From contig JAQURS010000002.1 of the NCBI GenBank assembly GCA_028715505.1, forward strand, positions 102,658 to 153,613: a stretch of DNA of 50,956 nt, given 5' to 3'. Source of the DNA: Patescibacteria group bacterium (GTDB lineage Bacteria > Patescibacteriota > Patescibacteriia > 2-12-FULL-60-25). Below, one piece after another: positions 16,630 to 22,988 of this stretch. The notes below the pieces were generated by a model. It saw only the letters and a program-made list of their open reading frames with translations, made no database searches and was not told the origin of the DNA. Made by a program: the position numbers and the translations under genes. Numbering within the stretch: position 1 is the first letter of the stretch; every line of letters starts with the position of its first letter.

Positions 16630-17169
16630 ATGGATCAAGTTGCGTCTTTTTTGGCGAGCATCAATTGGGCTACGCCAAGCTGGGACCTTTTTATCTTCCT
16701 GTTCTTCATTATCGGTTCCTTGCTTTACGGTTTTTCGCTTGGCCGCGACCGCATAGTTGTCATTCTCGTTTCGGTTTACATGGCTTTAGCCGTGGTCGGC
16801 AACGCCCCGATCGTCAACCAGGTTAATTTCGCGTTCAACATCAACGACAGTTACGTTTTAAGAATATCGATGTTCATCTGCCTTTTCGTTGTCTTATTCT
16901 TTTTCTTGTCACGCAGCGCCTTACTTAAAACAATTGGTGACGGGTCCGGATCAGGCCCTTGGTGGCAAGTCATCCTTTTTAGCCTATTGCAAGTCGGGTT
17001 ACTGATTAGCGTCACGTTGTCGTTTTTGCCGAAAGAGATATTAAGCAACTTTAGCCAATACACCAGGGATATCTTTTTAAGCGACATGGGTAAATCCGCT
17101 TGGCTCATCTTACCAATCGTCGTCATGGCTTTAGGACCAAGGGGAAGTAAGCCAAAGTCGGTTGAATAA
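16630..17169 (+). CDS. Multi-pass membrane protein, 179 aa
   Basis: About five hydrophobic helices (residues near 18-36, 42-60, 77-97, 111-131 and 148-166) and a short charged C terminus. One hydrophilic loop is Gly/Ser-rich (GDGSGSGPW). Family not recognised; the helix spacing is somewhat like CvpA-type proteins, but no motif supports this. It has its own promoter after dnaJ and no SD, so it belongs to the core style of gene rather than the SD-led set. Confidence 0.7.
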   Translation: MDQVASFLASINWATPSWDLFIFLFFIIGSLLYGFSLGRDRIVVILVSVYMALAVVGNAPIVNQVNFAFNINDSYVLRISMFICLFVVLFFFLSRSALLKTIGDGSGSGPWWQVILFSLLQVGLLISVTLSFLPKEILSNFSQYTRDIFLSDMGKSAWLILPIVVMALGPRGSKPKSVE

Positions 17170-17222
17170 GCTATCTATTGACTCGTTTTTTGATCCATGA
17201 TAAGTAATTAACATAAGAGATT

Positions 17223-17333
17223 ATGAATTTCCGTTCATATCCGCAGTGCGACCGCATCGCCCACGTCGATACCATGGGCATCTTGTCGTATTCACAATGC
17301 CGGGTATGCATGGAGTCTAATCTGATTGGATAA
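17223..17333 (+). CDS. Possible leader peptide, 36 aa
   Basis: Open frame starting MNFRSYPQCD, about 10 nt after the predicted transcription start, with only a weak AAGAG before it. It contains four cysteines and ends 23 nt before the terminator hairpin. It overlaps pairing segments A, B and C of the leader, so ribosomes on it would change which hairpins form. The composition shows no run of one amino acid that would point to amino-acid attenuation. It may not be translated. Confidence 0.35.
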   Translation: MNFRSYPQCDRIAHVDTMGILSYSQCRVCMESNLIG

Positions 17334-17356
17334 AACCATTGATTTGATTTCAAGCG

Positions 17357-17382
17357 GACCCGGGATTGCCCCGGGTCTTTTT
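17357..17382 (+). terminator. Intrinsic terminator directly before the MFS ribosome site
   Basis: GACCCGGG (17357-17364), loop ATTGC, CCCGGGTC (17370-17377), then TTTTT. It ends only 4 nt before the AAGGAGGAG SD of the MFS gene, so it must be read through for expression. Confidence 0.85.
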
Positions 17383-17399
17383 GTTAAGGAGGAGCTGCA

Positions 17400-18638
17400 A
17401 TGTCCCTTGAAAACTCGAGTAGCACTGGCTGGCATCCCGCGAAAATTTATACGGCCGTAAATGTTTTACGGGCGCTGGGCATGGCTTCCCATGCGACTAT
17501 ATATTCGCTCTTTTTACGTCAGATCGGCATCAGCCAAGATAGGATATCCCTACTTAACGCTTTCTTTTGGTTGGTTCTTATCCTTTCCGAATTGCCCACA
17601 GGCATGTTAGCCGATGGGCGCAGCCGTGCCTGGTCTGTCAAAGCCGGGTCGATTAGCTTAGGTTTAGGCGTCGCGAGTTACTCTTTAGCTTGGAATTTTT
17701 GGTCGGCTCTAGCTTCTGAGGTAGTGATTGGAGTCGCCTTTGCGTTCCTTTCAGGCGCCGAACAAGCCTGGTTAACCGATGCTTTAGCCGCCAGGGGTGA
17801 AGGTGAAAGCCTCAAAAATGTTTACGCGAAAACTACGGTATGGTCGGCCATCTGTTTCGTAATCGGCGGAGTGATTGGAGATTTTATCGGCACTCGGGTT
17901 GGTTTTCGCGCTAGTTGGTTAGTCGGTGGAATCTTCATCCTCCTTGGATCCTTGCTGGCCGTGCGATTGATGAACACTCAAGGCGAACCATCCCATCGTT
18001 TGACCGAGATGCAGGCTTTAAAGCAAAGCGTAAAGGCTCTGAAATACAGTCCTGGTTTACTTTGGGCGGTACTGGCCGCCATGAGCTTGGGATTCGTGAA
18101 CCCGTTTAACCATTTTTGGAACCAATTCTTTGAGCCGCGATTACAAGGTTACTCATTGAGCTGGATTTGGATTCCGCTTTATGGATCGTGCGCTCTAACT
18201 GGAATTTTGGTCCGTAAACTAAAATTCTCCAAAGGCCATGAAGCCGGTGCCATGTTGGGCATGCTTGGTCTGTCTGGATTCGGCCTGACCGTCATGGGAC
18301 ATCTCCCCGGAATTGGCATGCCCTTGGCGATCACCATCCTTCACGAAGTTGGCAGGGGAGCATATGTTCCGCTCGCGGACGTTTATGTTCAACGTCGTGT
18401 GGAAAGCGGATATCGTGCCACCTATGGTTCGCTTCATTCCTTTCTGGGCCGAATGGGGAATGTGGTAGTCCTAGCCGGAGTCTGGTTTTTTAGTCGTGGT
18501 CTGGCCGACAGTGAATTCAAAATCGTCAGCATCTGGACTGTTTGCGGCAGCCTGCTTGTGCTCACCTCATTAATTCTCTTCTTCTTTAAGCCGGAAGAAT
18601 CTTCAGAATCCGTTCTTGTCCAAACCGCTCAAAACTAA
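17400..18638 (+). CDS. Major facilitator superfamily exporter, 412 aa
   Basis: Twelve-helix MFS transporter in the cytoplasmic membrane. The loop between helices 2 and 3 reads ELPTGMLADGRSRAWS, matching MFS motif A of drug-efflux members. A long central cytoplasmic loop starts near residue 195. The start is fixed by AAGGAGGAG (17386-17394) 5 nt upstream. The substrate is unknown; small-molecule or drug efflux is the likeliest role. Its leader looks like an attenuator, so expression is probably inducible. It ends in its own terminator, making a self-contained cassette. Confidence 0.85.
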   Translation: MSLENSSSTGWHPAKIYTAVNVLRALGMASHATIYSLFLRQIGISQDRISLLNAFFWLVLILSELPTGMLADGRSRAWSVKAGSISLGLGVASYSLAWNFWSALASEVVIGVAFAFLSGAEQAWLTDALAARGEGESLKNVYAKTTVWSAICFVIGGVIGDFIGTRVGFRASWLVGGIFILLGSLLAVRLMNTQGEPSHRLTEMQALKQSVKALKYSPGLLWAVLAAMSLGFVNPFNHFWNQFFEPRLQGYSLSWIWIPLYGSCALTGILVRKLKFSKGHEAGAMLGMLGLSGFGLTVMGHLPGIGMPLAITILHEVGRGAYVPLADVYVQRRVESGYRATYGSLHSFLGRMGNVVVLAGVWFFSRGLADSEFKIVSIWTVCGSLLVLTSLILFFFKPEESSESVLVQTAQN

Positions 18639-18717: not shown

Positions 18718-19152
18718 TCAAGTTTTTTGCTTGAGCGCTGATCGTTTCAGAGCGGGTTCAAACAATTCAGGAGAGAAGTTCCAGAGCCAACGATGTAGTC
18801 GTCGCGTCCAGTGCCCCTGTGGCAAAAGATCAGGCTTAGGCTCACGGTAAGGTGTGCCTGTACGATTTGTAACTTGTGGCGGGCCCAGACGTCGGAAGTA
18901 GCGGAAAAGATTAAAGCAAGTGACATTCCCCGAAAAGATCGAAATCCATTCGATTAACGTCCCGATAGACCAAAACCCCTTAAAAAAGTCCGGCTGAGGC
19001 AGAAAGAACATGAGGTTGATGGGTATGTACAGAATCCAGAATAGCCATTCAGGTCTCGTCGAACGTCGTTTCCACATCTGGACCATTACTTGGATTGAAA
19101 ACCCAAGCAGAAACAGCTTTAGGAGATGGATTATTGTAAAGAGCACGATCAT
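18718..19152 (-). CDS. Membrane protein, 144 aa
   Basis: Family not recognised. There are two to three N-terminal hydrophobic helices (IVLFTIIHLLKLFLLGFSIQV, WLFWILYIPINLMFFLP and a weaker one near residue 65), then a basic, Pro/Trp-rich cytoplasmic-looking tail (GHWTRRLHRWLWNFSPELFE). The ATG at 19152 is chosen because AAGGAGGAG lies 6 nt upstream; a longer in-frame extension has no start signal. Its start region lies just after the terminator of the 198-residue gene, so it is an independent unit. It shares the strong SD and the hairpin terminator with the 964-2882 set. Confidence 0.6.
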   Translation of the reverse strand: MIVLFTIIHLLKLFLLGFSIQVMVQMWKRRSTRPEWLFWILYIPINLMFFLPQPDFFKGFWSIGTLIEWISIFSGNVTCFNLFRYFRRLGPPQVTNRTGTPYREPKPDLLPQGHWTRRLHRWLWNFSPELFEPALKRSALKQKT

Positions 19153-19180
19153 GACCGTCTCCTCCTTATTCTTGCGGATC

Positions 19181-19206
19181 AAAAATACCGCCAAATTGGC
19201 GGTATT
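19181..19206 (-). terminator. Terminator of the 198-aa gene
   Basis: AATACCGCCAA and TTGGCGGTATT form a near-loopless inverted repeat (19184-19206), with a U run on the minus-strand side. Confidence 0.85.
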
Positions 19207-19221
19207 GTCAATTATCTGAAG

Positions 19222-19818
19222 TTATTGCACGTTCACTATGATCTGTGTCGCGTTGAACGACTCCTTTAATCTGATGTCTTCCGACGCGACGGCCACCACA
19301 TCGTCTCCCGTTTTTATGTCTGACAGTTTGATGGTTTGTTCAGTGTAAGGAAGCGGTGGAGAGTTGCGGCTGCCGTTCTTATTCCATCTATCGAGTTGCT
19401 TGGCCTGTTCATCTTGCGAAAGGAAAGTTCTTTGAACCACGGTCGTAGAGGCGGTCAGGATCGCGAGCCTCACGTTTGAAACGTTGTCAACAAATTCATT
19501 CGTGTCCAGATTAGTCACGTTTAAGCGTACGCCGTTCGATTCAACCGCGGCTACTTTGCCGGTTACGGATGTGACGATCGCTCCTTCGGGAAGCGGTGAC
19601 ATTTGCTGGTACTTTGTCCTGGCCGCTAAATATCCGGCTTTATAACCGTTTTCGTAAGCTTGTCCGGAAAATATCTGGCCAACGATGCCGGCATTGTCGC
19701 CGGAAAGCCGCTTATTCTGGACCCAGGAATTCAAGCCGACTAGAACTAGGGCCGTGAACGCGATGGAAATACAAAGTATGACCAGTATGTAACGGCTGAG
19801 TGATGCGCGATTATTCAT
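19222..19818 (-). CDS. Membrane-anchored extracytoplasmic protein, 198 aa
   Basis: An N-terminal signal anchor (about residues 9-30, YILVILCISIAFTALVLVG) is followed by a beta-rich extracytoplasmic domain with PLPEGAIVTSVTGKVAAVES, which looks like a small barrel or OB-like module, and a second strand-rich part near the C terminus. Family not recognised. An extended -10 (TGC-TATAAT, 19849-19857 on the minus strand) lies about 30 nt upstream, giving a normal leader without SD. The gene diverges from the lipoprotein at 19991. Confidence 0.65.
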   Translation of the reverse strand: MNNRASLSRYILVILCISIAFTALVLVGLNSWVQNKRLSGDNAGIVGQIFSGQAYENGYKAGYLAARTKYQQMSPLPEGAIVTSVTGKVAAVESNGVRLNVTNLDTNEFVDNVSNVRLAILTASTTVVQRTFLSQDEQAKQLDRWNKNGSRNSPPLPYTEQTIKLSDIKTGDDVVAVASEDIRLKESFNATQIIVNVQ

Positions 19819-20588: not shown

Positions 20589-22988
20589 ATGAACCGCAAC
20601 CTGATGAAGCTGTTCGCTCTGATGCTCCTGGTCGCGGCAGCCCTCTTGGGTTGCGGCGGCTCGGACAGTAACAACATCGTGGTTCCCGAAGCTGATGCCG
20701 AGGTACCCGACAACAACCAGCCCGATACTCAGCCTGGTACCGACGCGGACGCGCAAGCGGATGCGGGTGACGAGGCTGACTCGGCCGAGACGACCAAGCC
20801 TGATGCAGACGCCGGTGTCGAAGCGGAAGCTTCGAGCGACGCGGACGCGGAGCCTGACGAAGCCGATGCGGCTTCGGAAGCCGACGGCCAAGTAGGCGAA
20901 GATGCTGATGCCGGAACTGATGCGGATGCAGAAGCTGACGCTCAGGGTGATGAACCCGATGCAGAGGTGGATGCTGACGCGGAAGTACCGGATGCAGAAG
21001 CGGGGATTGATGCTGATGCCGGACAGGATGCTGTGATCGACGTGCCGCCGCCGCAGGAAATCTGCGGGAACGGCATGGATGACGACGGCAACAACCTGAC
21101 CGACTGCGCTGACCCCGCCTGCTCAACCTACCTCGCTTGCCAACCTGAGATCTGCAACGGATCTGACGACAACGGCAATGGATTGGTCGACGAGACCTTC
21201 CAGTGCGTCAAAGGCAGTTCTGCCGCGTGTTCCTTGCCCAACAACAAACAGGGCCAGGTCACGTGCCAGTCCGACTGCACCCTCGGCGCTTGCAACGTCC
21301 CAACCGAGATCTGCGACGATAACTTCGACAATGACGGCGACGCCAAAGTCGATTGCGCTGATCCGGTCTGCTCGTCTTTCCCGGCTTGCCAGTGCGTGAA
21401 CGCGATTCCTGGTGACCCTTGCGTGAACATTGGCGAGTACAGCTGTAACAAACTGTGGCGTTGCAACTGTCTGAAGGGCTGGGATGATCCCAACGGTACA
21501 GGTTTTTGGTGCCTTCAGGCCGAGGTCTGTAACGATAATCTGGACAACGATGGCGACGGCAAGATCGACTGCAAGGATGAGGATTGCCTTGGCAATTCCG
21601 TCTGTCCTGAGATCTGCTATGACCACGTCGACAACAACGGCAATGGTCTGACGGACTGCGCGGATCCCGCGTGCAACGGAGACTTCTGGTGTACCGAGGT
21701 TTGCGACGGGATCGACAATAATGGCGCAAACGGAATCGACGAGGGCTTCGAATGCCCGCTCAACAGCGTCGATACGAATTGCGTCACAGCATGTGGCTCA
21801 AAAGGCCAGCGTGTTTGCGGAGCGGGATGCCACTGGGGCGCCTGCCAGGCGCCGAGCACAGAGTCCAACTGCAACGACGGCAAGGACGATGATTGTGACG
21901 GCTGGACCGACTGCTATGACCCGGAATGCTGGGGCGCGACTTCGTGTCCGACCCACAACTTCGGCAATTGCAGCCCCCAGACGCCGACCATGGTGCAGGA
22001 GACCTGCGGTGGCAACACCAAGGAAGTCCTGCCTGCTGGTTTCGACCGCGTTTACGCTTGCTGCGCCAACGCGGAAAATGACCAGTGGTGCTTGGGCGGT
22101 ACCTATTCGGAACTCAAGCTGGCCCACAAGACCAACGCTTGGGCTGAGGTTTCCTTGCCGGTACAGGGGACTACGGGTGTAACTCAAGGTAATATCGCTT
22201 GTCTTGGGTCTGACCAAGTCTACATAACCTACGGTTCCCTTAACGGGGTGCTCGTGCGTTGGGATGGTGGCAAGCTCGTGAGATTGGGAGAATCTGTCAT
22301 CGGCAATTCCCAACTCGGCGTCATGATGGCCTTCTCTCCGACGGACATCCGGATCGTCGCATACAGTATGCCGAATTACACCAACGCCCGGATCTTGAAA
22401 TGGAACGGGTCAGGTGTCACGGCACTGCCACTACCAGTATACGCGTCGCCCATGAGGCTGATCGTGGCTGACTTGTGGGGATCATCGGATTCCGACATGT
22501 ATCTGGTTGGCACGCTCAACCACGACAACCAAGGATTGGTCTCTGAGGGCATAATGCTGCACTTTGACGGGACTTCCTGGGCTCGCATCATGGTCCCTGC
22601 TTACGGCTTCGGATCGGTCCATGGTACGAGTTCCTGCGACGTAACTGTTGCGGGCAGCATCTTTGTTGGATCTACCCTGCAGGGCATTACTGTCAATCGC
22701 AGCGGCAATAACTGGGTCACGACTTACCATCCAGAGGTTGAGGTCGTAAGCAAGATCCTGAAGACCGAGCCGTTCAAGTATATCTTGCTTGGGTCGAGTA
22801 ATTCGCCGGATCCGTTTACCACTGCCAGACGAGGCAGCTCGAACGGCGACTACACGGCTAACTGGATCTCGCCCATGCAGGACTTCTACGACGCATACAC
22901 CCTCTACAGAATCCCTGGAACTAACGAGTACAAGCTCGGCGGTTCCGGATTGGGGGGCGGATGGATCGTCTCGAGTACCTGCCAATAA
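20589..22988 (+). CDS. MopE-like Asp/Ala-rich, Cys-rich lipoprotein, 799 aa
   Basis: Large surface lipoprotein. Residues 1-22 are a signal peptide with lipobox ALLGC. Residues about 33-155 are a low-complexity Asp/Ala/Glu stalk made of DADA-type repeats. Residues about 157-455 carry at least six repeats of the form EICxNxxDxDGNxxxDCxDPxC (Asp-rich loops like calcium sites, each with paired cysteines), as in MopE-type and related proteins of Myxococcota. From about 460 on, a Trp/Gly-rich beta region (RWDGGKLVRL, KWNGSGVTAL, HFDGTSWARI) looks like propeller blades. It is probably an adhesin or metal-binding surface protein. GC and codon choice look richer in C/G than in the neighbours, so it may have been acquired by transfer. 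Confidence 0.75.
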   Translation: MNRNLMKLFALMLLVAAALLGCGGSDSNNIVVPEADAEVPDNNQPDTQPGTDADAQADAGDEADSAETTKPDADAGVEAEASSDADAEPDEADAASEADGQVGEDADAGTDADAEADAQGDEPDAEVDADAEVPDAEAGIDADAGQDAVIDVPPPQEICGNGMDDDGNNLTDCADPACSTYLACQPEICNGSDDNGNGLVDETFQCVKGSSAACSLPNNKQGQVTCQSDCTLGACNVPTEICDDNFDNDGDAKVDCADPVCSSFPACQCVNAIPGDPCVNIGEYSCNKLWRCNCLKGWDDPNGTGFWCLQAEVCNDNLDNDGDGKIDCKDEDCLGNSVCPEICYDHVDNNGNGLTDCADPACNGDFWCTEVCDGIDNNGANGIDEGFECPLNSVDTNCVTACGSKGQRVCGAGCHWGACQAPSTESNCNDGKDDDCDGWTDCYDPECWGATSCPTHNFGNCSPQTPTMVQETCGGNTKEVLPAGFDRVYACCANAENDQWCLGGTYSELKLAHKTNAWAEVSLPVQGTTGVTQGNIACLGSDQVYITYGSLNGVLVRWDGGKLVRLGESVIGNSQLGVMMAFSPTDIRIVAYSMPNYTNARILKWNGSGVTALPLPVYASPMRLIVADLWGSSDSDMYLVGTLNHDNQGLVSEGIMLHFDGTSWARIMVPAYGFGSVHGTSSCDVTVAGSIFVGSTLQGITVNRSGNNWVTTYHPEVEVVSKILKTEPFKYILLGSSNSPDPFTTARRGSSNGDYTANWISPMQDFYDAYTLYRIPGTNEYKLGGSGLGGGWIVSSTCQ
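20688..21040 (+). repeat. Degenerate GAYGCN codon repeat (Asp-Ala stalk)
   Basis: Within the MopE-like gene. Codons for Asp and Ala alternate many times with Glu and Gly interruptions. Third positions vary, so selection seems to act on the protein rather than on recent DNA slippage. Confidence 0.7.

Follow-up and report, generated by a model that had tools for sequence, protein, structure and literature searches.

The leader of an exporter-like MFS transporter gene in a member of the Patescibacteria is very probably a cis-acting transcription attenuator that senses the position of a ribosome on a near-leaderless upstream ORF (uORF); in this reading the ribosome sensor, the inducer, drug export and the transcription start are inferred from sequence. 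That the leader is a real, conserved attenuator of this mechanism class is well supported. Sequence comparison establishes the conservation of its parts, the mutual exclusivity of its pairings, their covariation, the open uORF and the association with MFS genes. The role of the ribosome as sensor is strongly suggested by in-silico masking, without data from cells. The most likely inducers are translation-inhibiting antibiotics; no compound has been shown to induce.

Patescibacteria (CPR) are mostly uncultured and genome-reduced, and to our knowledge very little is known of their gene regulation. As related pump genes in dozens of relatives are preceded by a leader of this design, these bacteria may sense blocked translation and answer with an exporter. 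A conserved attenuator would provide a concrete regulatory circuit that can be tested with reporters; it suggests that Patescibacteria meet translation inhibitors or a similar stress, and it names the exporter that responds.

Elements of the leader in the window

The window, i.e. the whole stretch of 50,956 nt that was analysed, carries the leader at positions 17170-17400, between a membrane-protein gene (16630-17169) and the MFS gene. The former lies directly 5' of the leader on the same strand and encodes a small hydrophobic protein of 179 aa without Pfam or NCBIfam match. The elements are as follows.

17178-17206, + strand: likely promoter, TTGACT (17178-17183), N17, TAAGTA (17201-17206); weak alone, supported by relatives
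17218-17252, + strand: segment A, predicted 5' arm of the anti-antiterminator, covering the uORF start and first codons (MFE fold)
17223-17333, + strand: uORF of 36 codons, peptide MNFRSYPQCDRIAHVDTMGILSYSQCRVCMESNLIG, with its stop about 25 nt 5' of the terminator stem (ORF list)
17253-17283, + strand: predicted apex hairpin P1 within the A:C stem, a possible pause hairpin (MFE fold)
17295-17322, + strand: segment C and helper H, 5' arm of the antiterminator, including CCGGGT at 17300-17305 (folding, covariation)
17341-17368, + strand: helper H' and segment D, 3' arm of the antiterminator; D doubles as the 5' arm of the terminator (folding, covariation)
17356-17382, + strand: intrinsic terminator D:E, stem 17356-17378 and U-run to 17382; 9 pairs, 7 of them G-C, -17.6 kcal/mol
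17386-17392, + strand: Shine-Dalgarno (SD) sequence of the MFS gene, AAGGAGG, read from the sequence, with the ATG at 17400
17400-18638, + strand: regulated gene, exporter-like MFS transporter of 412 aa (Pfam MFS_1, E=2e-17)

The sequence bears out every position given in the initial annotation, among them those of CCGGGT and of its complement ACCCGG in segment D (17358-17363), and also the 36-codon frame and the terminator, including the claim that an intrinsic terminator directly precedes the SD of the MFS gene, which begins 3 nt beyond the end of the U-run. Alternative pairings are possible between A and C (17218-17252 with 17284-17323), between C and D (17295-17322 with 17341-17368) and between D and E. 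A pairing termed A:B, proposed as a hairpin of its own, does exist but is not separate: it makes up the apex of a single long A:C stem.

Taken by itself, the window departs only partly from chance. The 190-nt leader has a more stable fold than its dinucleotide shuffles (z -2.45; 2/200), but neither the C:D pairing alone (p = 0.23) nor the apex hairpin (p 0.39) exceeds shuffles significantly; the C:D complementarity that had been claimed is present at the positions given and covaries in relatives, without standing out in this single sequence. The promoter, likewise part of the initial annotation, is weak here and was not picked up by a consensus scan of the window; near-consensus promoters in the same position in relatives make it credible. 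The predicted transcription start near 17213 would leave a 5'UTR of about 9 nt without a Shine-Dalgarno sequence. The decisive evidence is the comparison with relatives.

The MFS protein is an ordinary member of MFS_1; drug export is likely, inferred from its similarities rather than shown. A PDB profile search returned NorA as the sole match (6e-11), and there is weak similarity to the tetracycline exporters Tet(40) and TetA(P) and to HP1165. Its closest named relatives are from Uhrbacteria or Patescibacteria MAGs, with identities of 71, 60 and 58%, and many at 31-43%, which places the genome of the window in the Candidatus Uhrbacteria group. Beyond the gene, two minus-strand ORFs convergent with it (18718-19194 and 19222-19818) encode proteins (158 and 198 aa) that match no Pfam family, and a lipoprotein-like protein of 799 aa (20589-22988) contains a long Asp/Ala-rich stretch with repeated motifs such as ICGNGMDDDGNNLTDC and CNGSDDNGNGLVDE.

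Distribution and covariation of the leader in relatives

MFS homologues were gathered from related genomes and 53 leaders were annotated. The annotation of uORFs used a length bonus, and in most loci the uORF was unchanged when this bonus was left out; uORF starts were set by hand at seven loci, as were two whole loci, L030 and L037. The leaders share one order: a TTGACA-type promoter, the uORF ATG, the apex hairpin, the C arm, the uORF stop, the D arm, E with the U-run, and the MFS start. TTGACA is matched at five or more of six positions in 45/53. Candidatus Uhrbacteria are ultra-small, uncultured Patescibacteria; nearly every Uhrbacteria MFS homologue is preceded by the leader, typically with arms C = TTCCCGGGT, D = ACCCGGGAA and E = CCGGGT, and in the same class the leader also precedes homologues from 14 or more families. 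Some distant members of this class, beyond the 53 annotated, also carry the architecture, and in other classes of the phylum it is present before some MFS homologues and absent before others.

A strict detector was positive for 41 of the 53 real leaders versus 1 of 318 dinucleotide-shuffled regions, and for none of the 42 MFS genes of a control set outside the group (L068-L110, more distant MFS homologues, almost all of other phyla). In the home genome, of which the available sequence stretches cover 1.03 of 1.07 Mb, it retrieved a single ORF out of 857, the MFS locus of the window; only 15 of 970 genes there have a terminator of -11 kcal/mol or lower within 40 nt upstream. A covariance model of the leader gave one strong match per genome, each 5' of an MFS gene, and those genomes listed without a match have no close MFS homologue. 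Weak matches of this model (E>0.001) were discarded as chance, since they fall within coding sequence or opposite a true match on the other strand; scanning the home genome for a consensus leader pattern, which proved too strict, found nothing. Upstream neighbour genes vary among relatives while the leader stays, which therefore travels with the MFS gene. The viral contigs searched held no MFS relative, and a plasmid search gave only partial, distant matches, so that there is no sign of mobility.

Covariation was measured on an unguided MAFFT alignment of 35 leaders. Unprompted, RNAalifold chose the antiterminator helper stem together with the terminator, with compensatory changes in 13/15 pairs. 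Over the 18 pairs of the antiterminator (C:D plus helper), 90.7% of cells are paired and double changes occur in 14 pairs, amounting to 104 cells; none of 500 shuffles reaches this level, and sliding by 1-3 columns reduces pairing to 22-62%. The terminator D:E is paired in 100% of cells, also with compensatory changes. The outcome that would have spoken against the initial annotation, a lack of compensatory changes in homologous leaders, can be set aside, since they are abundant in both structures. In some leaders the pairing persists although the sequence itself has been exchanged, e.g. TTTGCCGAGTTT / GACTCGGCAA in L066 and CTTGTTATAATGC / GCGTTATGACAAG in L022. Tested leader by leader, C:D is better than shuffles at p<0.05 in 34/53 (Fisher 348 on 106 df), A:C in 24/53 (Fisher 322) and the apex hairpin in 26/48; these p-values are not independent because the leaders share kinship. 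As fixed alignment columns A:C covaries only weakly (58% paired versus 36-48% when slid), probably because its register shifts. Pairing, covariation and the folds of the window agree that terminator and antiterminator are mutually exclusive, as is required of an attenuator.

Several subgroups show additional features. In one Uhrbacteria subgroup (L035, L038, L039, L042, L044, L046, L047 and L067), an extra 75-150 nt lie between the terminator and the MFS SD, often capable of forming a hairpin (GTGCTCGAA...TTCGAGCAC in L044), and possibly constituting a translational layer; this stretch is absent from the window. In leaders from other families or classes (L159, L225, L226, L227, L237, L030 and L029), the terminator 5' arm and loop carry a motif near CGCCTCGGCTAGATA, versus CGGGAA in Uhrbacteria, and such sharing may mean that the leaders descend from one ancestor. 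L057, L063 and L064 have a motif near CCTTAACAAC in the stretch from the terminator to the MFS SD, and L029 and L030 a similar one; each variant of this motif has at most 3 exact copies in the home genome.

The uORF and the nature of the signal

The uORF measures 26-46 codons and is open over at least 26 codons in 53/53 leaders, versus 3/53 and 27/53 for the other two frames from the same start. It begins where segment A begins, and thus meets another expectation for an attenuator, that of a uORF overlapping the anti-antiterminator and kept open. From the -10 box to the uORF ATG the commonest spacing is exactly 8 nt (17/53 leaders), and 31/53 fall within 5-10 nt, which predicts transcription to start at the ATG or 1-3 nt before; for the window and two close relatives a 5'UTR of about 9 nt is predicted. 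No SD-like 5-mer precedes the uORF in any of the 53 leaders, versus 43/53 with an SD-like sequence after the terminator. Both the transcription start and uORF translation remain inferences from sequence alone. The peptide is not conserved: changes are spread 38/43/50 over the codon positions, and seven independent pairs differ by 65 nonsynonymous versus 25 synonymous changes. With an unconserved peptide in an always-open frame, what is kept appears to be the run of the ribosome over A, the apex hairpin and C to a stop about 25 nt before D, not the product.

Under the proposed mechanism, the absence of a ribosome would let the nascent A pair with C, leaving D for E, and transcription would stop before the MFS gene. 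In normal translation, a ribosome at the uORF stop would cover C and H, D:E would form, and the gene would again be off. A ribosome held on the first 4-13 codons or so would cover A and leave C free for D; no terminator would form and the exporter would be transcribed.

Folding with an in-silico ribosome follows this scheme at the level of the family. Averaged over 48 leaders, the terminator probability is 0.92 without a ribosome, drops to 0.49 when codon 8 occupies the P site and is back at 0.95-0.98 at codons 21-26; masking thus destabilises the terminator at codons ~4-13 and not at the uORF end. When the 5' end is masked, C is sequestered less (median 0.28, against 0.70 unmasked), and when the 5' part is shuffled, masking changes the terminator probability little (0.70 to 0.67). 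In the window, nascent RNA ending at 17354 is predicted to fold into the long A:C stem (MFE -39.6 kcal/mol), the terminator forming afterwards; the antiterminator C:D becomes the MFE structure when the 5' end is masked, and D:E returns when the stop region is masked. Unlike the family mean, however, the codon scan of the window at equilibrium is irregular: the terminator probability dips at codons 1-3 and again at 18-19 but does not drop over codons 4-16. Many relatives hold P(term)>0.9 at equilibrium despite early masking, so the switch would need co-transcriptional kinetics. The earlier suggestion that ribosome position decides the fold is supported by modelling for the family and only partly for the window; ribosome sensing in cells is unproven.

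A trp/his-type attenuator would employ the identical A:C, C:D and D:E logic, with ribosomes stalled by uncharged tRNA on control codons within segment A and a nutrient transporter turned on as a result, and codons 2-11 of the uORF are indeed enriched in Asn, His, Lys, Gln and Tyr. Yet no residue occurs within codons 2-12 of all leaders (Asn in 48/53, often at codon 2; Lys in 36, Tyr and His in 34 each), no single-codon runs were seen in the 53 leaders, leaving the control-codon criterion unmet, and the MFS protein resembles exporters rather than amino-acid permeases; we regard such starvation control as improbable. We give the same low credence to drug-specific arrest of the erm/mef type, in which the uORF peptide would bind a particular antibiotic in the exit tunnel. 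This is how the closest described attenuator of an MFS exporter, mef(E)/mel, works (PMC4335068), but arrest would demand a conserved peptide, which the excess of nonsynonymous differences denies, and no MRLR-like motif was seen among the listed uORF peptides. It is still less plausible that the uORF is incidental to a small-molecule riboswitch or protein-binding leader: riboswitches likewise use terminator/antiterminator switches, but the 35-leader alignment holds no conserved unpaired pocket, no Rfam model matches, and the uORF is invariably open and starts at the start of A. That D:E is merely the ordinary terminator of the upstream gene, which ends on the same strand at 17169, the MFS gene having its own promoter, can practically be dismissed, since promoter and uORF intervene, upstream genes change while the leader stays, C:D covaries, and in the window, with only about 17 nt from U-run to ATG, no promoter fits between U-run and SD. 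A separate promoter after the terminator, the second outcome that would have counted against the initial annotation, is thereby set aside as well.

Since the peptide is unconserved and no codon is repeated, the ribosome-position attenuator probably reads a general slowing of initiation or early elongation rather than a single amino acid or an arrest peptide. A wider proposal, which we advance tentatively and hold to fall a little short of an even chance, is that Patescibacteria have, across the phylum, a sensor of blocked translation that does not depend on the peptide: the leaderless uORF would load 70S ribosomes at the 5' end, and a halt within the first dozen codons, caused by any drug, would turn on a dedicated exporter. 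This would be an ancient response to antibiotic stress, inherited vertically, in bacteria whose regulation is very reduced.

Comparison with known attenuators

In trp-type attenuators of E. coli, pairings 1:2, 2:3 and 3:4 are mutually exclusive and a ribosome that has reached the stop codon of the leader enforces termination; the Patescibacteria leader differs in having no control-codon run and in not preceding a biosynthetic operon. Leaderless attenuator uORFs that respond to amino acids have been described in S. meliloti trpL (PMC7298713) and in the Streptomyces leu and ilv leaders (PMC8079986), and a title cited in PMC13236596 points to mycobacterial polycysteine uORFs as a further such type. 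As far as these sources allow comparison, all share with the present leader an ORF start at or near the transcript 5' end, but they lack its exporter-like gene, and it lacks their amino-acid signature.

As the initial annotation had supposed, no known class accommodates the leader, in that no Rfam covariance model matches it at gathering score, and our literature search, which left out most subscription journals, found no paper on such attenuation in Patescibacteria/CPR.

Two antibiotic-responsive systems come closer. In the vmlR leader of Bacillus subtilis, which controls an ABC-F protein acting as a resistance factor, the uORF is 3 codons long and has an SD; there is also an SD-sequestering hairpin, and a NusG-dependent pause has been demonstrated. 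A ribosome that stalls close to the start of this uORF uncovers the antiterminator, and early-stage translation inhibitors induce (PMC9226507). Our leader likewise combines uORF, anti-antiterminator, antiterminator and intrinsic terminator, with a proposed exposure of the antiterminator by early stalling, but its uORF is longer (26-46 codons) and lacks an SD, and the gene it precedes encodes an MFS transporter. The 53 leaders do not qualify as vmlR-type, for which a minimal uORF with its SD and the TTNTTT pause motif of NusG are expected; over all of them TTNTTT is not clearly enriched before C (16 versus 11.6 expected). In one subgroup (L042, L043, L045, L047, L049, L051, L058 and L067), a TTTTTGTTT-like run just 5' of C matches this motif.

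The mef(E)/mel leader of Streptococcus pneumoniae, found on Gram-positive mobile elements, encodes the 8-codon, SD-led peptide MTASMRLR and depends on macrolide-dependent stalling (PMC4335068). It attenuates transcription of an MFS exporter through a leader peptide and an intrinsic terminator, as is proposed here, but the Patescibacteria leader has no conserved peptide, lies on the chromosome and occurs widely within a single phylum. In many known antibiotic attenuators, ribosome position and nascent peptide are mixed as the sensed variable; an SD-less, peptide-independent uORF would separate the two. The best reading is that the leader works like vmlR or mef(E)/mel and is a member of neither.
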